A program made the translations under genes and the position numbers. Shown here one piece after another: positions 6,833-39,035 of a stretch of DNA of 64,000 bases (the first letter of the stretch is position 1; the number at the start of each line of letters is the position of its first letter). The notes under the pieces are model-generated. The model did no database searches. It worked only from the letters and a program-made list of their open reading frames with translations, and was not told the DNA's origin. Source of the DNA: Phycisphaerales bacterium Planc_01 (lineage in GTDB: Bacteria > Planctomycetota > Phycisphaerae > Sedimentisphaerales > Anaerobacaceae); the NCBI GenBank assembly GCA_001603075.1, contig LVBB01000109.1, forward strand, positions 1 to 64,000. Reading direction: 5' to 3'.

Positions 6833-9800
6833 CTACGGCTCGGCGTCCATGACGCGGACGTCGTCGATGTAGATCGTGCCGATGCCGCCGGGCATCGGAT
6901 CATTCCGGTCGCCGACCCCGACCACCATCTTTCGGATGGCCGCCGGATTCACTCCTGGGAAATCCGCAAGCGGAATTTCCCATTTCTGCCACGCATCCGT
7001 AGTGGCCAGTCCGGCGTCCTTGACGGTGGCCATTCGGCCGGCGCTGTCTTCCAACGCCACATATACCTGTTCGGGCGGATTGCTGGCAATGCCCACGTCG
7101 CGAGAGACCGTGAACGGGCCGGCGGGCACCACCTGCCCGGTCGTGCTGACGTTGGAGAATCGCCCCTCGATGAACTGGCCGGAGGCGTGAGAGCAGACGA
7201 CCAGCCCGATGTAGACCGGGTCCATCATGCTGATGTTCACCTCAGAACCACTGTCGAGCAGCGGCATCCAATTCACACCGTCGTTCGACCTGGCCGCCTT
7301 GAAGACAAACCCTTCTCGCGTCAGGCGCAACCAGATCGGCGTCGTTCCAACGCCATCGATGGTGGCGACGCTGGATGTGTCGCCGCCGGTGGTGACGCGA
7401 GCCGTCAGCCGGGTCCTCGGATCAGGTTCGGCAAAGACGATCGCGTTGGCCGCGTTGTAGTCGAGCGTGTCCCGAATCATCACGCCGACTCTCGGATCGC
7501 CGTGAGGAAGCTCTTCGCTCATCCCGTCGACGCGAACCGTGATCGAGCCATCGCCCGTCAGTTCTTTGTAGGCGAAGTGGAACTGGTCCGACGTGGCCCA
7601 GATGTTGTACCCGGCGCCGGTGATCGTATAGGTCTGTGACAGCGGATCGTAGTGAGTGGCTCCCGACAGCGTGCGGCCACGGACCTGCATCTGAAGCGAG
7701 CCGCCTCCATAGGCCGTCCAGTCCTGCGGCGAGAACCAGCTCCGCTCGGCCTCGGAGTAGTAAGGCGCGACGCTGTTGTCGAAATGCAGCGGCATGGATT
7801 GCCTGCCGCCGTGGACGACCCCTTGCTCGGCAAACGGGGCATCGAGGTGGCCTACGGTCGAACCGCTGCTGCCGTCGGCATAGCCGTCCAGCCAGGTCTG
7901 GAAGATGGTCTCGTCCGCATCGATATTGTCCGTGTAGCCCTCGAAATCGTCCACGATCAGATAGTCGGCCACGGTGAACGTCCAGATGTAGCCGGTGCTG
8001 ATGGTCCCATCGCTGCTGATCTCATCGACGCGCCAGAAGTACTGCCGGCCTCTTTCAACTGCCGGGGTCGGCATGTAGTTCGGCGCGTTGAACCGCCCGC
8101 GATAGATGCCGGTCGCGTCCGAGGCGTCGGCCTTTCGGACCAGCGCGCGGTCCGTGCCGAGATAAACGTCGTGCTGGAACGCCAGCGCTCCGGGCTGCCA
8201 GGTCAGCAGGACCGCGCCCGAACTGTCGGGCGTGGCGCCGTTGGCCGGATTCGGATTCGATGCCGGTAGCGGGTCGCCCTTCATCACCTGATCGAGATCG
8301 TTGAACGTCAGAGCCTTGTTGTACACCCGGACGTCATCGATGAGGCCGTCCCACGCGCGGAGTCCGGCGCCGCCGACGATGCTGTTGCCGATGGTGACGT
8401 CGAGATCAGGGTTGGCGGCCACGGCGGTGCCGCCCTTGCCGCTCTGGCCGACCTGTTCCCCATCCTTATACAGGAACATGTTCGTGCCGTCCCATGTGGC
8501 GGCGGCATGCGCCCACTCTCCAGCCGCCAAGGGCCCGGACATGGCCAACAGGGTGGTGCTGTCGCGATCGTCGTTTGTCTTAAGCCGGAACCGCAGAACG
8601 TAATTGGCCCCGCTGGAGTTCGAACCCAGCATCCACCACGCATCATTGGCGGCCGCGACGCCACTGGCCTTCTCGATGATGCGGGCATCGTGCTGTGAAA
8701 AGCTCTCGGGGCGAATCCACGCGGCCATCGAGATGCCGCCATCCGGCAGATCAAATGCGGGAACCACCACGGCGTCATTGGCATTGCCGTGCTCGAAGTC
8801 CAAGGCCCGGCCGAACAGACCGTCAACCCGGGCCACCGATCCTGTCAACGTGCCGTGGCGATCGTGACCCGAGGAGTCAATTGCGATCGTCCCATCCTCT
8901 TCATCGAACTTCCACCAGCCGACCAGGCTGGGATCGACGGGGGCGATCTCCCGGAGCGTCGTGAAGCTCCAGACGGGCCCGACGACCGTCGTGCCGTCGG
9001 AGAGGATCTCATCGACGCGCCAGTAATACGTCCTGCCTCTTTCGAGCGAGCCGGCTACGAACGCGGCTTCGGCCTGGCTGCCCTGGTAGGTGCCGTCGGC
9101 GCCCTCGGCAACGGCATTGGGATCGTCGCCGAAGTAGACCTCGTGCAAAACGGCGTCCAGACCGGGCGACCAGGTCAGCGCGGGCTGCTCGGCGCCGACC
9201 ATCTCGGCGCCGTCCTGCGGAACGGGGGCATGGGCCGACGACGGAGCGGCCATGAAACTCCAGACGGCGCCCTCATGAACGATCCCATCCACGTCGATCT
9301 CATCAATGCGCCAGTAATACGTGGCGCCGGGCTCGAAAGCGGGCGTATTCCAGTGCGTCACGCTGCTCGGGGTTTCATCGACCTTGTCGGCCTCACTCAA
9401 CTCCGGCGAAGTCCCAAAGTAGACGGCGTGTGAGATGGCGTACTCTCCGGCTCTCCACGCCAACGGGCCGGACGACACACCGTCGACCCCGTCCGCCGGC
9501 TGGGGTTCTGAGGCCTTGAAGGCGACGTACTCGGCTACAGCCATCACCTCCTCCACGGAGGGAGAGGCAATAATCGTGTTTCCAAAGCCGATATACACGT
9601 CCCAGATACGTACGAATCCACGGAACCGGTCATCCTCGACGTAGTGTCTGGCCCATGCGGCGGCATAGCGGCTGTTGCCGCCTGCCGACGAAAACACCGC
9701 CCTTGCCAGCACGGTGAAGCCGGTGGGGTCGTCGGGGATCGCGGTCGCCCGCGTCGAGGCCCACCTCTGAGTCAAACCCCAGTCCGTGCCCGCCGATGTC

Positions 9801-22401: not shown

Positions 22402-23316
22402 TTATGCGATGAACTGGCGAAGGAAACGTGCGCTCTGGCGAAGGGCCGCCTTGCGAGTTTCCAATGACCCCTCGTAGGCCCGGTCCTCGACCTCGACGCA
22501 CACCGGACCATCGTAGCCGGTCTCGCCCAGGACCGAGCAGAACCGTCCCCAGTCGACCTGGCCCAGCCCCGGCAGCTTCGGGCTGTGATATTGCAGCGGC
22601 GTCTCGAGGATGCCGACGTCGTCCAGACGGTCGCGGTCCAGGCGGACGTCCTTGGCGTGCACGTGAAAGATGCGATCCTTGAACTCCCACAACGGCTTGA
22701 TGTAATCCATTTGCTGCCAGATCATGTGCGATGGATCGTAGTTGAGCCCGAAGTACCTGGACGGAATCTCCTCGAACATCTGACGCCAGATGCGAGGGCT
22801 GTGGGCAAGGTTCTTGCCGCCCGGCCATTCATCGTTCGTAAACAGCATGGGGCAGTTCTCGATGCCGATTCGAACCTCATGATCTTCCGCGAATCTCACC
22901 AGCGGAGCCCAGACCTGCCTGAATCGGGGCCAGTTGTCCTCGATGGATTTCGTCCAGTTCCGCCCGATGAAGGTCGTCACCTGCCCAACACCCAGCAGCG
23001 CCGACGCGGCGATGACCTTCTTGAAATGGGCCGTCACCGCCCTGGCCTCGTCCGCGTTGGGCGTCAGGTAATTGGGGTAGTAACCGAGCGAGCTGATACT
23101 CACTGCCGCGTCCTTCAGGACAGCGCGAATCTTCTGGGCATCGGCCGACTTGAAACCGGCCACATCGACGTGAGTGACGCCGGCATAACGGCGCTCCGCC
23201 CTGCCTTTCGGCCAGCACATCAGCTCCACACAGGAATACCCGGTCTCCGATGCAAACCGGATCACTTCTTCGAGCGGCAGATCGGGCAGAATCGCACTGA
23301 CGAATCCCAGTTTCAT
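22402..23316 (-). CDS. Sugar phosphate isomerase/epimerase (xylose-isomerase-like TIM barrel)
   Basis: A 304-residue cytoplasmic protein of the AP endonuclease 2/xylose-isomerase-like TIM-barrel family. Metal-site residues appear in [25 protein letters not shown] and [10 protein letters not shown]. Such proteins interconvert keto sugars or inositol derivatives. The ATG at 23316 follows GGAGAACGTTC and overlaps the stop of the Gfo/Idh gene by four bases, so the two are coupled. That pairing (dehydrogenase plus isomerase) is common in pathways for inositols or oxidised sugars; the exact substrate cannot be told. Confidence 0.88.
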
Positions 23317-24476
23317 GAACGTTCTCCTTTCAGTTCGACCCATCGCTGCTCCCGATGGCTCCGCAGTATGGCCTCGCACAGCAGGATCTCACGATGGCCA
23401 TCCGCAAACGTGGGGAAGGTTGGCGGCGCCGTGAAGTTGCCGGCTTCGAGATATTCGTAGAACGCGCGGAAGCATTGCTTGAACGTATCGGGGAATCCCT
23501 CGTTGTGCCCACCCGGATAGTTGATGAAGTGACGTGCCCGCTCGGACACGAGGGCCGGGTCGCGGATCAAGGTCTCGTTGGGTCGGTCGCGGTGCCCTAC
23601 CCACAGTTCATTGGGCCGCTCGCTGCACCAGGCCAGCGCGCGCTGGGTGCCGGCGATCTCGTATCGCAGGCAGTTCTTGCGACCGGCCGTGACCTGGGAG
23701 ACTTCCAGGCAGCCGCGAGCGCCGCCTTTGAATCGAATCAGCACGGCTCCGTAGTCCTCAGTGCTGATGTCCACTGGCTCGGTCCGAGCTGGCCCGGCCA
23801 CCTCCTTGCCCTTGAACGTCTGAACCTCTCCGACGGGGCGCTGCCGAACGGGATGGACCGTGGACAGGTCCGCGCAAACCGCTTCCGCCTCAAGGCCCGT
23901 AATGGCGTGGACCAGATCCAGCCAATGCGTCCCGATGTCCGCGATCGCTCGCAGTTCACCCCCCTCTTCGGCCAGAACCCGCCAGTTGTAGTCCGTCGGG
24001 TAGAGCAGCCAGTCCTGCACGTAGCTGCCGCAGACGGAGTAGACTTCGCCCAGGTCGCCGCGTCGAACGATGTCCGCCGCCTCCAGGCACAGCGGATAGT
24101 AGCGGATGTTGTAGTTGACTCCCGCTGCCAGGCCGCTCTTGCGGGCCAGCTCGACCAGCTCGCACGACTCGGCCGAATTCATGGCCAGAGGCTTTTCGCA
24201 CAGCACGTGCTTGCCCGCATCCAGGGCCGCTTTGGCCATCGGATAGTGCAACCGATTGGGCGTGGCGATGTGCACCACCTGCACCGTGCCGTCTTCGAGC
24301 ACCTCGTCGAAGCTTCGGTATGCCTTCGGCAGGCCCAGCCTGCTTGCGGCCGCCTTGGATTCCTGATCGGAGACCCCGAGAATCCCCGTGACCTTGACGC
24401 CGACTCGCCCAAGGGCCTCGACATGTACCGGGCCGATGAACCCGGCCCCGACAACTGCCGCACGTCTCTCTGACAT
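23313..24476 (-). CDS. Gfo/Idh/MocA-family oxidoreductase
   Basis: A 387-residue NAD(P)-dependent oxidoreductase. The N-terminal Rossmann motif is [14 protein letters not shown]; the family signature HVLCEKPLA lies near residue 93. The C-terminal half is the substrate-binding alpha/beta domain, with [13 protein letters not shown] carrying the usual Asp and His. It is cytoplasmic and lacks an export signal, unlike the Tat-exported relative at 28929. The ATG at 24476 follows GGAGCAGAGTC. It follows the PTPS-like gene by 13 bases and is coupled to the isomerase downstream. The substrate is unknown. Confidence 0.9.
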
Positions 24477-24489
24477 GACTCTGCTCCTT

Positions 24490-25287
24490 TCAGCCACAGC
24501 AGGTGCAATACGTACGGTCGGACTCCCAGACGGTAACGCTGTGCAGCCGTGCCGGATCGAACTTGTCCACGAGGCGGCGCCACGCGAAGGCGGCGAGGTT
24601 CTCGACGGTCGGGATCGCCTCGCGGAACTCGTCGAGGTCGGCATTGAGGTTCTTGTGATCCAGCAGCGAGATCAGCTCCGCCTCAACCGTCTGCTGGAAC
24701 CGCCCTGTCTCGAACCCCGCCGCATCGGCGGGCATCGACACCGTGACATCGACGATGTAGTTGTGCCCGTGTCCGGTGGGGTGGGCGCATTTGCCGAAGA
24801 CCTCGAAGTTGCGCTGCTCGCTGAAGGCGTCGTTCCAGAGCTTGTGCATCGCCGCGAACTCGAACTTCTCGCTGAAGCGCAGTACGTGCGGCTCGTTGGC
24901 ATCCATCGTGAGCTTCCTGTACGGATTGAGGTTGAGAATCAGCCGGTCCACCTCGGCGGCGCCGAACCGGCCCGTCAACTGTTGCTGAGCCTGCCTGAGC
25001 ATCTGCACGACGAGGTCCAGACCGATCGGACAACCGCATCGGTACCGTTCGCGAACGCCCTGGGCAAACACGGGCACGGCAAACTGTCTGGCGATCCGAT
25101 CCATGTCCATGACGTTGACGACGAAGCCGGTTTCGGGCGCCACCCGACCGACGATCTCGATCGTCAGCTCCAGGAACAGGGCCAGGCCTTCGCCGGCGGG
25201 TCTGGACGCGTAGGCATTGGCGCCGGGATGGTCCCGATCGCGAAACGGATTGATCGAGAATCGGACCTGCCGGGCCAGCCGCACCAT
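24490..25287 (-). CDS. Double-length 6-pyruvoyltetrahydropterin synthase / QueD-like protein
   Basis: A 265-residue protein about twice the usual length. The C-terminal half (residues 132-265) has all PTPS/QueD marks: zinc His148, His173 and His175 (HKLW and HGHNY), catalytic Cys167 in [13 protein letters not shown], and Glu255 in VTVWESD. The N-terminal half (residues 8-130) has the look of the same fold ([27 protein letters not shown]) but lacks the Cys and His set, so it is probably structural or regulatory. It starts 11 bases after folE, which makes dihydroneopterin triphosphate, its substrate. The product could be a queuosine precursor or a pterin. Confidence 0.88.
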
Positions 25288-25926: not shown

Positions 25927-27457
25927 ACGTGGTAAGATTCATCAAGTAGGTTACGACCAGCCGCACGCCGAAGCCGGTTGAACCCGGTGCGGCGTAGTCG
26001 GTGCCCTTCTGGAGGATGTCCATCCCCGCAATGTCCAGGTGGGCCCATTTCGTTTCGCCGACAAACTGTCGCAGGAAGGCCGCCGCCGTGCAGGCCCCGC
26101 CCCACCGGCCGCCCGTGTTGCGCAGGTCGGCAATTTTGCTCTTCATTTCGTCGGCATACTCGTCGCCGCTGGGCAGGTGCCAGACGTCTTCACCACTGTC
26201 GTCGGCGGCGCGGCGGAGCTGCGCGACCAGATCGTCATCGTTGCTCATCAGGCCGGCCTTGTATTGCCCCAGCGCGACCATGCACGCGCCCGTCAGCGTC
26301 GCGATGTCGATGATGGCTTCGAAGTTCTGCCTGGCCGCATAGGCCAAAGCGTCACAGAGGATCATCCGCCCTTCGGCATCGGTGTTGAGAATCTCGACCG
26401 TCTTGCCGCTGTACGTGGTGACGATATCGCCGGGTCGATAGCTCGATCCGCTCGGCAGGTTCTCCGCCGAAGGGATCAGACCCCAGACGTTCACCGGCAG
26501 TCCCAACTCGGCCACCGCCTTCATCGTCGCCAGGACCGCGATCCCGCCGCTCTTGTCCAGCTTCATCTGATCCATATCCGCCGACGGCTTGATGCTGATC
26601 CCGCCCGAATCGAACGTGATCGCCTTGCCCACCAGGGCCACGCGCGGCGATCCCTTGGCCGGCTTCCTGGGAGGGGTGTATTTGAGGATGATGAGTCTTG
26701 GCTCGTTCTTCGATCCGGCGCCGACGGCCAGGATGCCCCCCATCCTCTTGGTCTTGAGCTGCCGAGCGTCGAAGACAGTGCATTGGAGCCCTTTGGTGCC
26801 CCGAGCCATCTCCACAGCCGCCCTGGCCAGCGTCGAGGGGGTGATGACGTTCCCCGGCCGGTTGGCGATGGTCCTGGCGTAGCTCTGGGCATGGCCGATG
26901 ACCGCCCCGGCGGCAAGCCCCTGGTTCAGCGCTTTGATCGGGCCGCCGTCGGCGTCCACCACCTCCACCTTCAATGCATTGCGCCGCCCGTTCTGGCTCT
27001 CGGTGACGAATTCGTCGTAGCGATAGCTGCCGAAGTGAGCCCCTTCGGCCATCGCCTTGCCCATCGGCGCTGTGTCGAGCTTGCCTTGCGCCGCCTGGTG
27101 CAGGGCCAGCGACAGCGTTTGGAGCTTCATGTTGACGGCCTGGTTGGCAGCGGTTGCGGCGGCCTTGCGAATCGTCTCCAATGTGGCCTTCTTCCGCTCG
27201 CCCAGGCCGATCAGCATCACGCGCAGCGCCGGGATCTTGCCGTCACCATAGAGGATCGCGCTGGTTCCGGCTTTGCCGACGAAGTCGCCCAGCTTGGCCA
27301 GCCGACCGATCGCTCCCCCCAGTTTGTCGTCCAGGGCCTTTCCCGTCCTGTCCCGTCCGGCCCCATCGGAGAAACGCCCCAAAACGAGCATGTCCGTCTT
27401 GCACCGGGCCGGATCGACCCTCCGTGTCTTGATATCCACCGTAATGATCTGTTTCAT
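25925..27457 (-). CDS. pepA: Leucyl aminopeptidase (M17)
   Basis: A 510-residue cytosolic M17 aminopeptidase that removes N-terminal residues from peptides with two metal ions. The C-terminal catalytic domain carries VGKAITFDSGGISIKPS, the second metal motif with DKSGG, and the signature NTDAEGRMILCDAL. The N-terminal domain (1-170) is divergent, as usual. The start at ATG 27457 is 12 bases after prfB; a GTG at 27466 is an alternative. GAAGAGA precedes the ATG. Confidence 0.94.
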   Translation of the reverse strand: MKQIITVDIKTRRVDPARCKTDMLVLGRFSDGAGRDRTGKALDDKLGGAIGRLAKLGDFVGKAGTSAILYGDGKIPALRVMLIGLGERKKATLETIRKAAATAANQAVNMKLQTLSLALHQAAQGKLDTAPMGKAMAEGAHFGSYRYDEFVTESQNGRRNALKVEVVDADGGPIKALNQGLAAGAVIGHAQSYARTIANRPGNVITPSTLARAAVEMARGTKGLQCTVFDARQLKTKRMGGILAVGAGSKNEPRLIILKYTPPRKPAKGSPRVALVGKAITFDSGGISIKPSADMDQMKLDKSGGIAVLATMKAVAELGLPVNVWGLIPSAENLPSGSSYRPGDIVTTYSGKTVEILNTDAEGRMILCDALAYAARQNFEAIIDIATLTGACMVALGQYKAGLMSNDDDLVAQLRRAADDSGEDVWHLPSGDEYADEMKSKIADLRNTGGRWGGACTAAAFLRQFVGETKWAHLDIAGMDILQKGTDYAAPGSTGFGVRLVVTYLMNLTT

Positions 27458-27469
27458 TCTCTTCACTTT

Positions 27470-28589
27470 CTACGCGGTCTTCGTCTTGTCCTTGGCCCGG
27501 TGCCGCAGGAAGCTCTCGATGAGGGCGTCCAGGTCCCCGTCCAGCACGGCTTCGACGTTGCCCGTCTGGTAGTTCGTTCGATGGTCTTTGACCATCTGGT
27601 AGGGTTGCAGCACATAGCTGCGAATCTGGTTGCCCCAGGCGATTTCGCCCTTGTCGCCGTAGAGCTTGGCCACCTCGGCATCGCGCTTCTGCTGTTCGAG
27701 CATGTAGAGCCGACTCTTGAGCACCTTCATGGCCTGGGCCTTGTTCTTGTGCTGGCTCCGCTCGTTCTGGCACTGTACGACCAGACCGGTCGGCACGTGC
27801 GTGATGCGGACCGCCGAACTGACCTTGTTGACGTGCTGGCCCCCGGCACCGCCGGCGCGGTAGGTGTCGATGCGAAGATCGTCCTCGCTGATCTCGATCT
27901 CAATGTCTTCATCGAACTCGGGAGTGCAATCGACGGCGGCAAAGCTCGTGTGCCGACGCTTCTGCGAATCGAACGGGCTGATGCGCACGAGACGGTGGAC
28001 GCCGACTTCACACGAGAGCTTGCCGAACGCGAACGGCCCGATGACGCGCACCGTCACCGAGCGGATTCCTGCTTCTTCACCCGGCACAAGGTCCAGTTCC
28101 TCGTATTTAAGCCGGCTGGCGTCGAAGAAACGCGTATACATCCGCAGCAGCATGTTGGCCCAGTCGCAACTCTCGGTGCCCCCTGCCCCGGCGTGGATGC
28201 TGATGAAGCAGTTCTTCGTGTCCTCCGGACGCGACAGCAGGCCCGCCAACTCGATCTGCTCACAACGGCGGACGAGCGAATCGACGTCCTCCTCCAACTG
28301 CTCCAGTTCGTCGCCGTCTTCTTCCTCGGCGGCCAGTTGATACAACTCGCTCAAATCCGCCACCTCGCGATGCAGCTCCTCGACCGGCTCGACCACCGCC
28401 TTCAGCGCGCTGAGCTGGCTGGTGACGCGCTGGGCCGCCTCCGGGTTGTCCCAGAAGCCCTCGCGAGACATCTGCTGTTCCAGTTGATCCAGTTGCGCCC
28501 TCTTGCCGGGCAAGTCAAAGCCAGTCCCGAATCTTCACGACTCGGGCCTCAAGTTCGCCGATCAGACCTTTCAGTTCCGCTACTTCCAT
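27470..28589 (-). CDS. prfB: Peptide chain release factor 2, with programmed +1 frameshift
   Basis: RF2 releases peptides at UGA and UAA. Reading starts at ATG 28589 (after GGGAGG) with MEVAELKGLIGELEAR and reaches an in-frame TGA at codon 25 (28517-28515). The context is CTT TGA C, the conserved RF2 autoregulatory slip site. Skipping one base restores the frame as D-L-P-G-K-R and continues to the stop at 27470, giving 372 residues. The catalytic GGQ loop lies in RAGGAGGQHVNKV, and the anticodon-like SPF tripeptide in VRISPFDSQKRRHTS. pepA follows by 12 bases. Confidence 0.95.
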
Positions 28590-28681
28590 AGAACCTCCCA
28601 ATGGGTTATTCCAACATGCCAGAGCACAGCCCCACAGGCGAATCAGAAATCCACAATCTGCAATCCGCTGTTTGATAAGGC

Positions 28682-28928: not shown

Positions 28929-30290
28929 ATGACTCAACCCGTCAGCAATTCCAACGTCAATCGCAGGCAGTTTCTCCAGGCGACCGGCTCGCTTGCGGCG
29001 GGTGCCGCCGTGCTCGGGGGTCTCTCTCCGGCCGCGTTCGCCAGCCAGGACAACACCATTCGCCTGGCACTGCTCGGCTGCGGCGGGCGCGGCACCGGCG
29101 CCGTCGGCGATGCCCTCGGCGTGCCCGACGGCGGACCAATCAAGCTCTACGCCATGGCCGACGTCGTGGAAAGCCGTATGACCAACGCGTACAAATCGCT
29201 CAAGGAGCAGTTCGGCGACAAGATCGACGTGCCGGAGGACCGCAGGTTCATCGGCTTCAAGGGCTACCAGAAGGCCATCGACATCCTCCGTCCGGGCGAT
29301 GTGGCGATGTGTACCACGCGATCTTACATCCGGCCGCTCCACGTCGAATACGCCATCAAGAAGGGGATCAACGTCTTCATGGAGAAACCCTTCGCCTCCG
29401 ATCCGGGCGGTCTGCATCGGCTGCTCCGCGCCGGCGAAGAGGCGGATCGCAAGGGCGTCAAGGTGCTGGCCGGCGTACAGTGCCGCCATTCGCCCGCCCG
29501 CCAGGCGCTGATCGAGAAGATCCGCAACGGCGAGATGGGCGAGATCCCGCTGATTCGCGCCAACCGCCTGGGCGGCACCGGGTGGCTGGGCAACCAGGGC
29601 GCCAACGCCAACAAGCTGATGAGCCAGCTCGAATTCGGCCGGGCCGAGCTGTACTGGGTCGGATCGGGCCATATGGTCGACAATCTCATCCACCAGATCG
29701 ACGAATGCTGCTGGATCAAGGACGCCTGGCCGGTGAAGGCCGAGGGCTTGGGCGGGCGCGTGCCTCGCAGCCAGGACCACGGACAGAACATCGACGTCTA
29801 TTCGATGGAGTACACCTTCGCCGACGGGACCAAGGCGTTCTGCGGGTTCCGGCGGATGAATCACTGCCGCAGTGAGTTCGCCACGTTCATCCACGGGACC
29901 AAGTGCGCCGCGCAGTTCTCCGGCGACGTCCACGCCGCAACCGTCCATATGTTCAAGGACCAGCGGATCGACAAGAGCAACATCGCCTGGACGCCCACGA
30001 GAGACCGGTACAGTCCGTGGCAGTACGAGTGGAACGTCTTCATCGACAGCATTCGCAACGACCGGCCGCACAACGAGGTCAAGCGCGCCGTCTATTCGGA
30101 CCTCACCTCGTGCATGGGCCGTGCCGCCTGCCATACGGGCCAGACCATCACGTGGGACGACATGATGAAGTCGCGCTTCCAGTTCTGCGATTACCTCGAC
30201 GACCTGGACTACGACAGCCCGGCCCCCGTCAAGGCCGACGCAGACGGCTGGTTCCCCATCCCCATCCCCGGCCAGTGGACCGAAGTCTGA
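28929..30290 (+). CDS. Tat-exported Gfo/Idh/MocA-family oxidoreductase
   Basis: A 453-residue protein with a twin-arginine signal (NRRQFLQATG at residues 11-20, hydrophobic stretch to about 38), so it is exported folded with its NAD(P) cofactor. The Rossmann motif is LLGCGGRGTGAVGDAL, and the family lysine is in NVFMEKPFASDP. The C-terminal domain holds GHMVDNLIHQIDECCW. This subgroup is abundant in planctomycetes and related to exported glycosidase-like members such as GH109; whether this one oxidises sugars or acts by an NAD-dependent hydrolytic route cannot be told. GGAGACCACC precedes the ATG. A GH127 gene follows after about 250 bases. Confidence 0.88.
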   Translation: MTQPVSNSNVNRRQFLQATGSLAAGAAVLGGLSPAAFASQDNTIRLALLGCGGRGTGAVGDALGVPDGGPIKLYAMADVVESRMTNAYKSLKEQFGDKIDVPEDRRFIGFKGYQKAIDILRPGDVAMCTTRSYIRPLHVEYAIKKGINVFMEKPFASDPGGLHRLLRAGEEADRKGVKVLAGVQCRHSPARQALIEKIRNGEMGEIPLIRANRLGGTGWLGNQGANANKLMSQLEFGRAELYWVGSGHMVDNLIHQIDECCWIKDAWPVKAEGLGGRVPRSQDHGQNIDVYSMEYTFADGTKAFCGFRRMNHCRSEFATFIHGTKCAAQFSGDVHAATVHMFKDQRIDKSNIAWTPTRDRYSPWQYEWNVFIDSIRNDRPHNEVKRAVYSDLTSCMGRAACHTGQTITWDDMMKSRFQFCDYLDDLDYDSPAPVKADADGWFPIPIPGQWTEV

Positions 30291-30542: not shown

Positions 30543-33269
30543 ATGAGGAAAACGACGTTCATCACCCTATCACTGGCTCTGACGTTGGGTGGCTCGGTTT
30601 TCGCCCAGGGACACGACTCGACCGAGTCATCGACCGGCGCCAATCTGGCTGTTGTCGCCGAGCCGTCGAGTTCGTATGTCTCCGGCGACACCTCCAATGC
30701 GGCGATCAACGACGAATACAATCCACGAAGCTCGCGCGACAATCGCCGGGGCTCGTACGGCAACTGGCCCCGAACGGGAACCCAGTGGGTGCAGTACGAA
30801 TGGAGCCAGCCCATCAGCACGGACAAGATCGACGTGTACTGGTGGGACGACCGCCAAGGCGTCCGTCTGCCCAAGGCCTGCCGCCTGCTGTACTGGGACG
30901 ACAACACGTTCGTTGCCGTGAGCAATCCTTCCGGCCTGGGCGTAGCAGGCGACCGATACAACACCACGACCTTTGACGAGGTCCGCACCTCGAAGCTCCG
31001 GCTGGAGATCGACTCGAACGACACCTTCTCCACCGGCGTCCTCGAATGGAAGGTCTACGATTCGGGCCGGTCGCCCGATTTCCCGCCTCGCGTTGATGCA
31101 GGCGTCGATCGCGTGGTCGTGCTCGGCGGCAGAACCTATCTGTCGGGCACGACGAAGTCGCTGGCGAGGAAGGATGCGCCGCCGATGAAGGTGACCTGGA
31201 GCAAGGAATCGGGCCCTGGGTCAGTCGTTTTCGAGGACACCGGCGCCGAGACGACGAGTGCGACGTTTTCGGCCGTCGGCGATTACGTGCTCAAGCTCAC
31301 TGCCGCCCGGGGTCCGCTGAGCGGCTCATCGACTGTGAACGTCCGGGTCGTGACGCCGCCGCCGGCCGAGAACCTCCATCTGGTCGATACCAAGCCGTAC
31401 CGGATCGACAGTCGCCTGTGGAACGACCGGGCCAAAGCCCTGATCGTCAACTGGATCCCGCATTGCATCGCAAAGATCTCCGATCCGAACCTCAGAGAAG
31501 GCGGGATCAACAACTTCATCGACGCCGCCAACAAGCTGGCCGGCAAGCCCCACGGCCGGCACCGCGGCTACGTCTTCTCCAACGCATGGGTCTACAACAC
31601 GATCGAATCGATCTGCGTGGCCCTGATGGTCGATCCTCAGGGCGACCGGGCGATCATCGAGGCCCAGCAGGCCATGAAGGCCACACTCGACGACTGGATC
31701 CCCAAGGTCCTGGCCGCCCAGGAGCCGGACGGCTACATCCAGACCGTCTATACGCTCAGCGACCGCCAGCGCTGGTCGCCACGGTATCGGGCAGACCACG
31801 AGGGCTACGTCGCCGGCTACTTCCTCGAAGCCGCCATCGCCCACCACAACCTCACCCAAGGCCGGGACCTGCGCTTCTACAACGCGGCCAGGAAGCTCGC
31901 CGACTGCTGGGACACCAACATCGGCCCGCCCCCGAAAAAGGAATGGTACGACGGCCACCAGGCGATGGAGATCGCTCTGGTTCGATTCGGCCGATTCGTC
32001 AACGACACCGAGGGACAGGGCCAAGGCGACAGGTATATCCAACTGGCCAAGTTCCTCCTGGACTGTCGAAAGGACGGCTCGGAATACGACCAGAGCCATG
32101 TCCCCGTCATCGAACAGTATGAAGCGGTTGGCCACGCCGTGCGCGCTTCCTATTCCTACGCGGGCATGGCCGACGTGGCGATGGAAACGGGCGACATCGA
32201 CTATCACAGCGCGGTCATAAGCCTCTGGGACAACATGGTCAACCGCAAGTACTATGTGACGGGCGGAATCGGCAGCGGCGAGACGTCCGAGGGATTCGGC
32301 CCGGACTATTCCTTGCGCCACAACGCCTACTGCGAATCGTGTTCGAGCTGCGGCCTGATCTTCTTCCAGCACAAGCTCAACATGACCTACCATGACGCAC
32401 GCTTCGCCGACCTCTATGAAGAGACGCTCTACAACGCTCTGCTCGGGTCGGTCGATCTCGATGCGAAGAACTTCTACTATCAGAACCCACTCGATTCGTA
32501 CGGTCCGCGCTACGACTGGCACGTCTGCCCCTGCTGCGTCGGCAATATCCCCCGGACACTGCTGATGCTGCCCACATGGACCTACGTCACGAGCGACGAC
32601 AGCATCTATGTGAACCTGTTCATCGGCAGCACCGTGACGATCGAGGGCGTTGCCGGCACCGACGTCGAGATGGTCCAGAAGACCGACTACCCCTGGTCCG
32701 GCGAGGTGTCCATCACCATCCGTCCCGCTGCTCCCAGGAGCTTCGGCATCAAGATTCGTACGCCGAACCGCAGCGTCAGCGAGCTTTACAGCGCAACACC
32801 TGCGGCCGACGGCATCAGTTCCATTGCCGTCAACGGGGCAAAGATCTCCCCGATCATCGAGAACGGCTACGCCGTGATTACGCGCACGTGGCAGGCCGGG
32901 GATGAAATCACCCTGACCGTGCCGATACAGGTCCAGCGGATCAAGGGCAGCGAAAAGATCGAGGCGACCCGAGGGCAGGTGGCCCTTCGGTATGGCCCGC
33001 TGATCTATAGCGCCGAAAGCGTCGATCAGGACCTGAACAACGTTCTGAGTCCGACGTCGACCCTGACGGCGAAGTGGATGGACGATCTGCTCGGGGGTGT
33101 GATGGCGATCGAGGGCACGTGGGCCGACGGTTCGGCCTTCCGCGCGATCCCCAACTACGCCAGGGACAATCGCGGCACCGGCGTCGTCGAGGACAGCCAG
33201 GACGGTCCCGACCGTCGCGGGCGCGGTCGCCGCACGCTCAGTTCATCCGTCTGGTTAAAAGACCAATGA
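30543..33269 (+). CDS. Secreted GH127-family glycoside hydrolase (beta-L-arabinofuranosidase type) with N-terminal accessory domains
   Basis: A 908-residue exported enzyme with signal peptide at residues 1-21. Residues 35-170 look like a discoidin/F5-8-type binding domain (ending LRLEIDSNDTFSTGVLEWKV) and 178-275 like a PKD/Ig-type domain. The rest is the GH127 (alpha/alpha)6 barrel. The zinc-cysteine catalytic set is visible as Glu598-Ser-Cys600 (YCESCSSCG) and Cys664-Cys665 (HVCPCCVGN), matching the Glu/Cys residues of characterised beta-L-arabinofuranosidases. It would release L-arabinofuranose outside the inner membrane. GGAGG precedes the ATG. araA elsewhere in the window could use the product. 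Other DUF1680-fold specificities (GH137/142/146-like) cannot be excluded. Confidence 0.88.
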   Translation: MRKTTFITLSLALTLGGSVFAQGHDSTESSTGANLAVVAEPSSSYVSGDTSNAAINDEYNPRSSRDNRRGSYGNWPRTGTQWVQYEWSQPISTDKIDVYWWDDRQGVRLPKACRLLYWDDNTFVAVSNPSGLGVAGDRYNTTTFDEVRTSKLRLEIDSNDTFSTGVLEWKVYDSGRSPDFPPRVDAGVDRVVVLGGRTYLSGTTKSLARKDAPPMKVTWSKESGPGSVVFEDTGAETTSATFSAVGDYVLKLTAARGPLSGSSTVNVRVVTPPPAENLHLVDTKPYRIDSRLWNDRAKALIVNWIPHCIAKISDPNLREGGINNFIDAANKLAGKPHGRHRGYVFSNAWVYNTIESICVALMVDPQGDRAIIEAQQAMKATLDDWIPKVLAAQEPDGYIQTVYTLSDRQRWSPRYRADHEGYVAGYFLEAAIAHHNLTQGRDLRFYNAARKLADCWDTNIGPPPKKEWYDGHQAMEIALVRFGRFVNDTEGQGQGDRYIQLAKFLLDCRKDGSEYDQSHVPVIEQYEAVGHAVRASYSYAGMADVAMETGDIDYHSAVISLWDNMVNRKYYVTGGIGSGETSEGFGPDYSLRHNAYCESCSSCGLIFFQHKLNMTYHDARFADLYEETLYNALLGSVDLDAKNFYYQNPLDSYGPRYDWHVCPCCVGNIPRTLLMLPTWTYVTSDDSIYVNLFIGSTVTIEGVAGTDVEMVQKTDYPWSGEVSITIRPAAPRSFGIKIRTPNRSVSELYSATPAADGISSIAVNGAKISPIIENGYAVITRTWQAGDEITLTVPIQVQRIKGSEKIEATRGQVALRYGPLIYSAESVDQDLNNVLSPTSTLTAKWMDDLLGGVMAIEGTWADGSAFRAIPNYARDNRGTGVVEDSQDGPDRRGRGRRTLSSSVWLKDQ

Positions 33270-33330
33270 GTCACATACGCAAGTCACATGCTTGAACCGT
33301 CTGCCGTGGCGAATGCGTTGGAGGTCAGGA

Positions 33331-35760
33331 ATGAATCGAAACGGACATCTGACGAGACTGCTGCCGCATTGCGTGTTGACGACCATGATCCTGGGTGTAC
33401 CCATAGGATGGCCCCGGGCGATCCAAGCCCAGAGCCTGAACGGCCAGGTGGTCAAGCGCGTGCTGGATGCACGGGATGCCGGAGAGAACCTGCTGAAGGC
33501 GGACGGCTGGAGGCCTTGGGGAAAGGGTTTTGTCCGGCAGGACGATACCTTCGTCTGCGACAACGAAGGGGACTCGCAAGCGCAGCGGGGCATCTCGCAG
33601 GTGGTGACGCTCGACCAGGAAAAAGCCGAGCCGATCGTCGCCGTCGCCTGGAGCAAAGCCGAAGGGGTGGGCGGCAGCCGCGACAGCGATTATTCGCTGT
33701 ATCTCGATCTGACCTACCAGGACGGCACGCCGCTGTGGGGCCAGATCGATAGTTTCAACGTCGGCTCGCATGACTGGGAGAAGGCCGAGGTGATGGTCTT
33801 CCCGGACAAACCAGTCAAGTCGGTCGCCTTTTACATGCTCCTGCGCCGACATACCGGCCGAGCCCTCTTTCGCGGTGCCGAGCTGCGCGTCCTCAGTCCT
33901 CCGGCCGGCGCGACCCTGTTCGACGGAATGGTGATCGAGCCGACGGCGTCCCGGCGGGAGGGATTTCAGGTGCGCGACGTGGCCGCCGGGACGGATTTCG
34001 TTACGATCGAAGATTCCGCGCTCGATCTGGAGCTCGAATGCCAGACGACGGAAGAAGACGGCATCGCGTTCTTCGACGTGGTTCTCTCCGATACAGCCGG
34101 AGGCGATCGCGCCGTGACCCTGATCTACGCGATCCCCGTCGCGGCCGAGCAATGCCGGTGGTTCCACGACCCGCGGCGCAGCATGTCGGTCGAGCCGGGA
34201 CGCGAGTACCTCAATAGCACACGATTCGCGGTCGGGGTCAACGGGCAGTTGTCGCGATACCCCTTTGCGGCTGTCGCCAACGCGAGCGAGGCGACAGCGC
34301 TGGGGATTGACATGGCCCATCCGGCCTTCTTCCGCGCCGGGTACAATGCGGGGACCGAAGAGCTGTTTCTGGCCTACGACATCGGCCTGACCCCGGAGAA
34401 GCCCGCCGCTCGTCTGCGATTCTGCAAGTTCCATTTCGAGCCGGAATGGGGCTTCCGCGCAGCGCTCGAAGTCTACTACGAAGCCTTCCCCCGGCATTTC
34501 GTCCGGCGGGTCGCCGAACAGGGACTCTGGATGCCGTTTGCCAAGATCAGCGAGGTAAAGGGCTGGCAGGACTTCGGCTTCCGCTTCAAGGAAGGAAACA
34601 ATGAGACCGCGTGGGACGATGAGCATGGTATTCTCACCTTTCGCTATACCGAGCCGATGACGTGGTGGATGCGCATGCCCAAAGAGCTGCCCCGCACTCC
34701 GGACGCGGCCCTGGCCGAGGCGATGCGGCTCGCTCAGCAGGAGAATGACTCGCGTGCCCAAGCCCTGCTGACCAGCGGCTTTCACGATGAGCGGGGCCGG
34801 TTCCCCGCTCGCCTGCTGAACCTGCCCTGGAACGACGGCGCTGTGTGGAGCATCAATTCCATGCCCAACGTGCGCGGCGAAGCAACCGACTTCAAGAACA
34901 AATGGAACGCGACGTTGCGTGAGCGACTCTATGGCTCGCAGCGGACGGCCGATCTCGACGGCGAATACATCGATTCGAGCGAAGGATACGTCACCGATGA
35001 ATTGAACTTCCGCCGGGACCATTTCGCCATCGCACAGACTCCCCTGACGTTTTCGAGTACGGCGCACAGGCCGGCGATCTTTCGGGGATTGATCGCCTTC
35101 GAGTACGCTCGTGCTCTGGCCGACGACGTCCATGCGATGGACAAGCTGATGATGGCCAACTCGACGCCGATTCAGCTCTGCTGGCTGGCCCCCCTGCTCG
35201 ATGTCCTGGGCAGCGAGACCGACTGGAATCCAGCCGGGGTGTGGCGGCCCATGTCGGATGGCGACCTACTGTTTCGCCGAGCCCTCTGCGGGGACAAGCC
35301 CTACTGCTTCCTGATGAACAGTGAGTTCGAGCGTTTCTCGCACGAGTTGGTCGCCAGGTACATGAAACGCTGCCTGGCCTACGGCATGTTCCCAGGTTTC
35401 TTCAGCCACAACGCATCGGAAGGACACTACTTCACGCGCCCGGAACTGTACGAACGGGACCGCAGTCTCTTCAAGAAATACGTACCGCTGTGCAAGGCCG
35501 TCGCGGAGGCCGGCTGGGAACCGATCCCACACGCCCGCTCGAATCGCGAGGACGTCTACGTCGAGCGGTTCGGCCGGCAGTACCTGACCGTCTTCAACGA
35601 CAGCGGCCGCTCCCAGGAAGTGACCATTAATGCAGAGATCGACATCGCCGGCTCCACGCCCGATCTCGTCTCCGGCCGGAATATCGAATGGCGCAATGGC
35701 CAGGCAACGATCGCACTGGAGGCCGATGACGTAGCGGTCTTGCGAATCAGTAGTCCTTGA
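33331..35760 (+). CDS. Large secreted protein of unknown function, possible glycoside hydrolase
   Basis: An 809-residue exported protein (signal at about residues 5-34, ending AIQAQS). The first 170 residues resemble a carbohydrate-binding beta-sandwich ([40 protein letters not shown]). The middle has strands of a second sandwich, and residues 380-740 have the look of a TIM barrel with acidic segments [13 protein letters not shown] and [16 protein letters not shown] that could hold catalytic residues. A small beta domain closes it. I recognise no named family. The start follows GGAGGTCAGGA. It lies 61 bases after GH127 and probably shares its transcript. Its stop overlaps the convergent pseudopilin gene by 14 bases. 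Confidence 0.7.
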
Positions 35761-36556
35761 ACCTCACAATCCAGTCGGGCCAGTCGCTCGCGGTGACACC
35801 TCCCGCCAGGGTCCAGGGGCCGGCGGTGTCGAAGGTCTTGTGCCACTTCAGCGTCCAGAGTTCCTTCAGGCCCACCTTGCGGGCCGAGGCATCCGCAAAG
35901 ACACAACCGACGAATCCACCGTGCCGGTTGATGCAGCAGCGGGCCATGTCCTGATTCGTCCATGCCTCGAACTCATACGTCGCGGGGGCCGTGGTATGCT
36001 GAGGCCATAGGTCGAACCGCAGGGCGTCGATGAACAACGGGACATTGTTCGCATTCCTTACGTTGGTGAGCGTGCCCCAGAAACTCTGGCTGCTGCTGGC
36101 ATCAAGCGTCCGACCCATCAGAAAACCGTTGAGCCCATAGCTGCCTGCCACGCCGTTCGGGCCGGCCTCGTATCCTTCGTAGGGATCGCGAAAGATCCCC
36201 CAGGCGTTGAAGATGTTCAACGTGGGGGCGTTCACGCCATACTCATCCACAATCGGCTTGGTTGCCGTGGGGCAGAACCAGGTCTTGTTCTGTTTCCAGT
36301 CCCTCTGCGATTCGGGAAGCTGATAGATCCACCACCAGGCATTGGTGCCGATCCCGCTCCAGAGTTTGCCGTCGTTGGCCTCGGCGTACATCGTAGACAC
36401 CAGGCCCCATTGTCGCAGATTGGCCATACACCCGATCATGCGGGCCTGCTCGCGCACCCGTGCCAGCGCCGGCATCAGGATCGACATGAGCAGAGCGATG
36501 ATGGCAATCACAACCAGAAGCTCGATCAGTGTGAAGCCTCGATTTCTTCGCATCAT
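35747..36556 (-). CDS. Pseudopilin-like secreted protein
   Basis: A 269-residue protein with the prepilin leader MMRRNRG then [20 protein letters not shown]. The soluble domain includes the region [19 protein letters not shown], equivalent to the H-X9-DG motif but with Asp-Ala in place of Asp-Gly. The next gene upstream on the same strand is a paralogue, 42 bases away. It is processed and exported like the other pseudopilins here; the substrate or filament it belongs to is unknown. Confidence 0.82.
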
Positions 36557-36598: not shown

Positions 36599-37369
36599 TT
36601 ATGGATCGTAACCCAGCCGACCCCAGCAGGCCTTCTGGATCTTCTCAAGGTCGTGGTTGCCCGGCTGGGTCGTCAGGTCGCTGCCCTTCTGGGCCTCGGC
36701 CTCCTGCCAGGTCAACTGCGCCCACTCGATGGTCCGTGGGTCGGTCCAGCTATAGAACTCCGCGTGTCCATCGGCATGTGAGGCCACCGTTCCTTTGCCG
36801 TGCCGCATGGGAATCGGATTCCACCACTTGGGCAGATTGTAGTATACGGCCCACGCGGCATCGTAGTCCTGGCCGTAATCGTCGATGAACACGACCCGCA
36901 TGCCCGGCTGCTTGACGTCATGAATCCGTTTGCAGACCGGAGCGGTCGCCCCGAAATCGTAGCCGTTCATGGCGTGAACAATGCTGTATGTCCGCATCTC
37001 GGTCTTGGCGGCCACGGGACAGCGAAAGACCTTGACGTTGGGCGCGTAGGCGAACAGCACCCCGGCTTGCAGGGCCTCGATCTGGTCTTCTGTCGCCGAT
37101 TCCACCGGCAAGGTCCCCGGCGGCTTGCGGATCCAGCAGTCCGTGATCGCCCGATCTTCACTCGCCTGGGCCCGGGGCAGCCGGCCTTCGTTGGCGTCGG
37201 CATACATCAGCCAGGCCAGAACCAGGCTCTTGGTGTTGTTCAGACACGCCGCACGCCGGCCCTGCTCCCGCGCACGCTGCAATGCCGGCATCAGAATCGA
37301 CATGAGCACAGCGATGATGGCGATCACGACCAGAAGCTCGATCAGTGTGAAGCCTCTACCTCGTCGCAT
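36599..37369 (-). CDS. Pseudopilin-like secreted protein with H-X9-DG motif
   Basis: A 256-residue protein with the leader MRRGRG then [20 protein letters not shown]. The H-X9-DG motif is intact in [17 protein letters not shown] chose the ATG at 37369 because it gives the canonical short basic leader; a longer open frame upstream has no family resemblance. It lies 80 bases downstream of the Tat-exported fucose-isomerase-like gene and upstream of a second pseudopilin, forming a pair. Confidence 0.84.
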
Positions 37370-37449
37370 CTCAGAACTCCGTTCAAACGGTGTCCATCGG
37401 CCCGAGGCCCAGGGCCCCAAGCCCTCCAGGCCCCGGCGCCGCATCGCGA

Positions 37450-38979
37450 CTACATCAGAACCCCGCCGGTAATATGTTCCACCGTCACCCCGGAAAGCTG
37501 GGCCCATGCCCGTACTGTGTGCAGGTGTTTGCCATAGGTCAGGATCTTGTGGTGTCCTCGGACATCGCGCACATCCTTGACGTCGTCCAGAGCCATCTCA
37601 AAGGCGCACCGGCAGCCGCCGATTCCGTCGGCAGGATGGCTATCGACGTTTCGCAGGATCGTGCCGGTGGCGATCATGAGCGTGTCGGCCGACAGGAACC
37701 GCCACAAGGTCGCCGGCTGATTCTCCTGGAACAGCACCTGCGGCACCGCACCGTAATCCGCCTCGTGATGGCTGCGAATGATGTACGGTTCGGGATCGGC
37801 GTCGAATCCCGCCATTCGCGTGGGCGCCTTGCAGTGGGCCCCGGCATAGACGTTGCGCACCGTGTCATAGATGGGATTGTGCAGGAAGCCGGGCCGGCCG
37901 AGAAGGTAGCTGCTCAGCAACTCGGTAATGCCTGGAAAGATGTCCGCTTCGCAGCCACCGGTCGTGCCTTCATCGAGCAACTGCATGAACGCCAGGCACG
38001 GAGGGAAGATGTATGGACGCCGGCGTCTGGCCACGTGGGGGAAGCAATCCATCGTAACGGCATGACAGCGGGTGTCCTTCAGGAGCTGCCGGCTGGCCAC
38101 GTAGGCACGGGCCGCCTGGAGCAAATCGTCCTGCGATGGCTCGACCATTCCCTTGGCCTTCGAGCCGTACAGATGCATGATTTCCATCACCTCGTCCGAC
38201 TTGCTCGTCGCGTCGTAGACATCCACATACTTCTGGATCGGCGTATAGCAGAGCGTCGTCCCCAGCGGATCGAGCGTCTTGTCTCCTTCGGCATCGCCGG
38301 TGACCACCGCCAGTCGCGTTTGGGCCATCTGCCAGCGGGCCTTCAGCATGCGCAGGCCGTCGGCCAGCCAGTCCACGTTCGCGCTGGCGGCGGCAAAGAA
38401 ATAGGGTGCCTTGCGAAACCGCTCGTACACACCCGGATTGGAGTGGAGCGTTCCATGTGGCACGAAGGCGAGAACGGGCAGAGCACGGTCGCCCCGTCCG
38501 TCCAGAATGCGGTGCACCGCCTGCACGCCGTACACGTGGCCATCCATGTTGATCAGGACGACTCCATCGGCCTTCTGTGCGATGGCCTCGGCCAGGAAGG
38601 CATCGGCCGTCTCATGGTTCCTCAGACGCGTCTTCTGGACGTGAAGGTCAACACCCAGCCGATCCGCGCCCCCCTGGAGCGCCCTGGTATACGTGGCTTG
38701 GCTGGCATCGGCATCGTAGGCCTTGCCGGGCCAGCCGGTCTCCAGCAGATCGCCTGGACCCGCCTGGCAGAAGCCCACTCGGATCAGAGGTCTGGCCCCC
38801 CGCTGCCCCGGCAGCAGCGGCGCGCCCAGCACCTTGCCGGTGCTCCATTTGAACAGCCCCAGATTGATCGCCAAGGCCGCCCCGCCCAGAGTGCCCAAGC
38901 CCGCGAGGAAATCCCGTCGCCCCATCCGGGAACAGCAACGATTCGTCAGATGTGCCTGCCGATGTTCGTGTGTGCTCAT
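37450..38979 (-). CDS. Tat-exported L-fucose/L-arabinose-isomerase-like protein
   Basis: A 509-residue protein with a twin-arginine signal ([14 protein letters not shown] at residues 20-33). The body resembles the L-fucose isomerase superfamily: alternating alpha/beta N-terminal domains, then [11 protein letters not shown] and the metal-site-like stretch [26 protein letters not shown] at about residues 320-350. Such isomerases normally act in the cytoplasm, so export is unusual. Isomerase activity is not proven; it may be a sugar-binding relative. The start follows AAAGGAG, with a strong promoter at 39036. Pseudopilin genes follow. Confidence 0.78.
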
Positions 38980-39035
38980 CGTGAATGTCTCCTTTCACGC
39001 GCCTGCTCTTGCTGAAGCATCGACCATGTGTGTCC

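Follow-up and report, generated by a model that had tools for sequence, protein, structure and literature searches.

The gene described here, which lies on a 64-kb stretch of planctomycete DNA that we refer to as the window, appears to encode an enzyme that belongs to the AraA/FucI/SftI superfamily, is exported and handles sugars freed outside the cytoplasmic membrane. This is the best-supported picture of those considered, and we give it a probability of roughly one half; the export of the protein, its metal, its sugar, its reaction and its partners are all matters that we infer. Metal-dependent sugar isomerases with the AraA/FucI fold are known as cytoplasmic enzymes, and we found no report of an exported protein of this fold among the papers listed by our searches on sugar isomerases, Tat substrates and planctomycetes. 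One of the residues that usually hold the metal is often replaced in the exported family, which suggests that chemistry as well as location may have changed.

The reading frame comprises 509 codons on the minus strand, running from an ATG at 38979 through to a stop and preceded by a Shine-Dalgarno-like sequence (Table 1), and the coordinates given in a preliminary description of this DNA are those of a genuine open reading frame. Searched on its own, the protein found nothing at a useful level in Pfam and no useful match in PHROGs, while NCBIfam returned two weak matches, to L-arabinose isomerase (11.9 bits, against an equivalog cut-off of 622) and to sulfoquinovose isomerase, SftI (NF048012; 11.4 bits, against a cut-off of 700).

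Table 1. Positions in the window of the gene, of residues discussed in the text and of neighbouring genes.
Feature	Coordinates	Strand	Basis
ORF for AraA/FucI-fold protein, 509 aa, predicted Tat-exported	37450..38979	-	ORF call and predicted structure
AGGAG, Shine-Dalgarno-like, 9 nt 5' of ATG	38989..38993	-	sequence
Twin-arginine motif RRDFL, residues 21-25	38905..38919	-	sequence and family conservation
C312, invariant in exported and cytoplasmic rows	38044..38046	-	alignment
C328, invariant in exported and cytoplasmic rows	37996..37998	-	alignment
C343, invariant, adjoins E344	37951..37953	-	alignment
E344, equivalent of FucI E337 and AraA E306 (metal)	37948..37950	-	profile alignment
N368, equivalent of FucI D361 (ligand and base), here Asn	37876..37878	-	profile alignment
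H382, equivalent of AraA H350, invariant	37834..37836	-	profile alignment
C383, in 79/81 exported and 28/28 cytoplasmic rows	37831..37833	-	alignment
C456, in 81/81 exported and 0/28 cytoplasmic rows	37612..37614	-	alignment
H477, equivalent of FucI H528 and AraA H450, invariant	37549..37551	-	profile alignment
Pseudopilin-like gene (N_methyl, DUF1559), downstream; true start probably near 37369	36599..37507	-	domain scan
Second pseudopilin-like gene (N_methyl), downstream	35747..36556	-	domain scan
GH127 beta-L-arabinofuranosidase-like gene	30543..33269	+	domain scan
Gfo/Idh/MocA-like oxidoreductase gene with Tat signal	28929..30290	+	domain scan
Second Gfo/Idh/MocA gene	23313-24644	-	domain scan

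The fold becomes apparent once the family is considered as a whole. A profile made from an alignment of 38 sequences (A1) matched L-arabinose isomerase in the PDB at E 9.4e-7 and, more weakly, sugar-binding proteins across the N-terminal lobe (2ioy, E 1.5e-4), and hhalign of the family profile gave probabilities of 98 for AraA and 87 for FucI. A structure predicted from the same alignment (mean pLDDT 87.4, pTM 0.86) drew 38 PDB matches at E<=0.001 in Foldseek, the best 33 of them arabinose or fucose isomerases; VIA-align superposed it on arabinose isomerase with Z 26.2 (rmsd 4.2, 411 residues aligned) and on E. coli FucI (1fui), whose three-domain fold is present in the model, with Z 25.2 (rmsd 4.3, 426 aligned), the first unrelated fold following at Z 13.9 over 135 residues. 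Among the VIA-align matches listed, chains of sugar-binding proteins aligned over 120-132 of the 509 residues, against at least 400 for AraA and FucI; one lobe may nevertheless be related to such proteins. As modelled, the mature part is a complete AraA/FucI isomerase fold and extends beyond the common Rossmann lobe alone, and the isomerase fold proposed in the preliminary description is upheld by both profile and predicted structure. The label 'fucose' attached to it there is not: since AraA is as close as FucI, and Pfam fucose isomerase domains above cut-off were absent from the protein and from the families listed for the 38 members, fucose is unwarranted as the name of a substrate and we have dropped it as the specific sugar.

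The first 50 residues comprise a polar n-region followed by RRDFL and a hydrophobic stretch (together residues 21-42), and the NCBI Tat model TIGR01409 scores the protein at 15.9 bits, just below its cut-off of 16.7, so that a call made from this sequence alone would be borderline. It is settled by conservation across the exported family, in which the RR pair occurs in all 76 rows with a readable N-terminus (five of the 81 aligned rows are unreadable there owing to contig ends, masking or truncation). None of the 28 cytoplasmic SftI-like relatives has a Tat signal, the one regular-expression match, in L060, falling upstream of the probable start codon. TatC is encoded in the same genome, and with an RRxFL motif and an N-terminal hydrophobic stretch the protein has the sequence hallmarks of a Tat substrate; it is thus predicted to be exported by this route, in keeping with the signal reported earlier. 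A lipobox-like motif downstream of RR in 8/76 rows (L002, L020, L098, L100, L101, L102, L116 and L079) suggests that these members are Tat lipoproteins.

The rows compared here represent part of the matches listed, namely 29 relatives' loci and further places fetched as DNA, and rows that repeated an earlier row exactly over their last 300 matched residues were dropped before counting. The exported set was reduced from 84 rows to 81 by leaving out L025 and L041 (partial, both with a Tat signal) and L004 (no Tat signal, divergent first half), and the cytoplasmic set from 29 to 28 by leaving out L055 (partial). The exported rows form one branch of the tree with a support of 94; the tree was made by a quick method, and its deep placements are unsure because AraA, FucI and some rows sit on long branches. 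Judged from sequence, the family represents an exported form within the AraA/FucI/SftI superfamily. Counting the query itself, its genome contains seven matches at E 0.01 or better, as well as a cytoplasmic relative (L042) at a place above the PF02952 cut-off; 28 of 61 genomes (this one and 60 relatives) have a match at 1e-10, and a member was found in 12 of 246 genomes when the phylum was sampled evenly (profile, 1e-38). These counts describe a planctomycete family that is patchy in distribution and often multi-copy where present. Five loci, from a named sequence collection, are on planctomycete, unclassified and Hydrogenedentota contigs. Truncated or divergent forms also occur. L095 (contig C3 of genome G005, 8842-9726) is a copy of 295 aa from which the first half is missing, and falls in the tree near L035, a full-length member from that genome, while L004 (also L086; contig C13 of the query's own genome, 7881-8813) is a divergent, Tat-less relative whose match to the family profile is confined to the latter's second half, and which adjoins ABC-transporter ATPase genes; it is possibly a cytoplasmic counterpart supplied by an importer.

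Metal ligands were mapped by profile alignment of the family to the E. coli K-12 sequences of AraA and FucI. The ligands of AraA we take to be E306, E333, H350 and H450, residue letters that are confirmed in the E. coli sequence, and of their equivalents E344, H382 and H477 are kept while the E333 position is occupied by His367. In FucI, according to the account in PMC6894278, Glu337 and Asp361 are manganese ligands and also the pair that moves protons in the ene-diol mechanism, His528 being the third ligand. Here the Glu and His are kept and the Asp361 position is Asn368; exactly which residue would be the ligand depends on the register of the alignment, which places E333 on H367 and D361 on N368. 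The view of the protein as metal-holding, for which loss of the ligands had been named as the decisive objection, therefore survives at E344, H382 and H477 and is undercut where the Asp ligand and base has become Asn and the second AraA glutamate His.

This substitution is not peculiar to one sequence. At residue 368 the exported rows divide into 42 with Asp and 39 with Asn, against Asp in 28/28 cytoplasmic relatives, and on the tree this state requires at least five changes within the exported branch; the query's branch (8 rows) is entirely Asn and its sister branch (7 rows) entirely Asp. At position 344 every Asp-type row has Glu (42/42), while the Asn-type rows have 31 Glu, 7 Gln and 1 Asp; counted over related sequences rather than independent events, Glu344 has thus been lost in 8/39 Asn-type and 0/42 Asp-type rows, which indicates that after loss of the Asp the Glu is sometimes lost too. 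Standing where Asp would be, Asn368 probably breaks the usual ene-diol proton relay, and the Asn branches, that of the query among them, probably do not perform standard isomerisation; in members with an intact Glu/Asp pair, aldose and ketose are probably interconverted in the periplasm.

The cysteines have remained where the acids have not. C312, C328 and C343 are present in 81/81 exported and 28/28 cytoplasmic rows, and C312, C328, C343, H382, C456 and H477 are invariant across all 81 exported rows; A1 has eight invariant columns, these six together with G391 and G483. At position 456 an earlier alignment (38 + 29 rows) had Cys in 1/29 cytoplasmic rows. In sequence C343 adjoins the ligand E344 and C383 the ligand H382, and in the secondary structure of the model C312, C343, C383, E344 and H382 all fall at strand ends of the central domain, so that the three cysteines may lie near E344 and H382 in space. 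Disulfides specific to the periplasm are an unlikely reason for the four shared cysteines, C312, C328, C343 and C383 being present in 28/28 cytoplasmic relatives. Because the cysteines stay invariant where Glu and Asp vary, we have entertained a bolder idea: several exported branches would have given up the Glu/Asp manganese dyad, and the invariant Cys/His set would constitute a Cys-rich metal or thiol site, assembled before Tat export and catalysing a periplasmic sugar reaction novel for the AraA/FucI superfamily. We consider this unlikely.

Gene neighbourhoods lend modest support to a role in the periplasmic processing of polysaccharide-derived sugars. A tRNA-Thr lies upstream of the gene, and the genes that follow it downstream are pseudopilin-like rather than sugar-related; the GH127 and Gfo/Idh/MocA genes are elsewhere in the window, as are two large ORFs without a Pfam match on the plus strand (33292-35760 and 26039-28591; 822 and 850 aa). 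Around other members, BLAST clustering of neighbouring ORFs placed Gfo/Idh/MocA-like genes in 8 of 26 loci compared. L078, of the sister branch, has an alpha-L-fucosidase and a sulfatase nearby, homologues of which were found by BLAST at L082; the neighbours of L079 include a GH10 gene and, directly adjoining the family member, a phosphoglucose-isomerase-like gene (PF00342; 3686-5137, minus strand), and those of L076 include a PQQ-type beta-propeller gene together with two of its homologues. We compared 18 chosen family loci (+/-4.5 kb) with 18 control stretches taken at round positions in some of the same genomes, with genes called by a purpose-made codon score; both scans list 25 families, which is why control counts are given as upper bounds. 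Gfo/Idh/MocA accounted for 6 of the 81 genes near family members and for no more than 1 of 93 in the controls (one-sided Fisher p 0.04 at worst), and the corresponding enrichment of sulfatases, 4/81 against at most 1/93, was not significant (p 0.14).

In the mechanism that we favour, the protein would fold and bind its metal in the cytoplasm and then be exported by Tat. In the periplasm, a sugar released by secreted glycoside hydrolases and sulfatases would bind the AraA/FucI-type site between the domains, where the query, being of the Asn type, would either perform an altered chemistry in which the invariant Cys/His set takes part or merely hold the sugar; it would act upstream of exported Gfo/Idh/MocA dehydrogenases. 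A more conservative proposal, that the protein is a genuine metal-dependent aldose-ketose isomerase of the periplasm in which Asn368 (or His367) is still a ligand and another residue serves as the base, strikes us as doubtful. The complete fold, the retention of E344, H382 and H477 and an acidic residue kept at position 372 in 33/39 Asn-type members all speak for it, but Glu337 and Asp361 of FucI, as described in PMC6894278, are ligands and proton-transfer pair at once, and a loss of Glu344 confined to Asn-type rows is what relaxed constraint would be expected to produce.

An isomerase-derived, catalytically inactive protein that binds or senses sugars would suit the Asn at the catalytic position, the many paralogues and the resemblance of the N-terminal lobe to periplasmic sugar-binding proteins. 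We judge this improbable, however, since AraA and FucI would themselves have a lobe of that type, the C-terminal domain has been retained, the six invariant Cys/His positions would be needless in a mere binder, and no sensor or importer gene adjoins the query among the window genes scanned. It is scarcely credible that the protein remains in the cytoplasm behind a non-working Tat signal; the TIGR01409 score and the absence of a clean AxA site behind the hydrophobic segment would allow it, but RR persists across deep divergence in every readable row, is accompanied by a lipobox-like motif in some, and has no counterpart as a Tat signal in the cytoplasmic relatives. The exported enzyme that we prefer has a difficulty of its own in L004, a divergent relative in the same genome that lacks a Tat signal and is found near ABC-transporter genes. 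If the preferred reading is true, an exported branch that is multi-copy, differs at the metal site and has one extra invariant cysteine would imply that sugars are remodelled before import in some planctomycetes; the family also supplies matched Asp-type and Asn-type members with which to probe the role of the second acid.

Among the closest known systems are the cytoplasmic SftI-like relatives (e.g., L042 and L045), which have in common with the exported family the equivalents of C312, C328, C343, C383, E344, H382 and H477, and differ from the query in having Asp (28/28), no Tat signal and no C456; no solved structure turned up when the sequence of L042 was searched against the PDB. The SftI model NF048012 itself matches 30 of the 38 A1 members weakly (best 2.1e-15), far below its cut-off. 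With AraA (2ajt from E. coli, 4r1o from G. kaustophilus, 7cwv from T. maritima) the query has the complete fold in common (Z about 25-26) as well as the equivalents of E306, H350 and H450, yet identity is about 14%, His stands at the E333 position, and the protein is Cys-rich and predicted to be exported. FucI (1fui from E. coli, 6k1g from Raoultella) is likewise similar throughout the fold (Z about 25) and in the equivalents of E337 and H528, from which the query departs by its Asn at the D361 position, its lack of a Pfam fucose isomerase match and its predicted export. Since the fold is that of these enzymes and the full ligand set of neither is present, we regard the protein as a variant, set apart from both the fucose and the arabinose isomerases.
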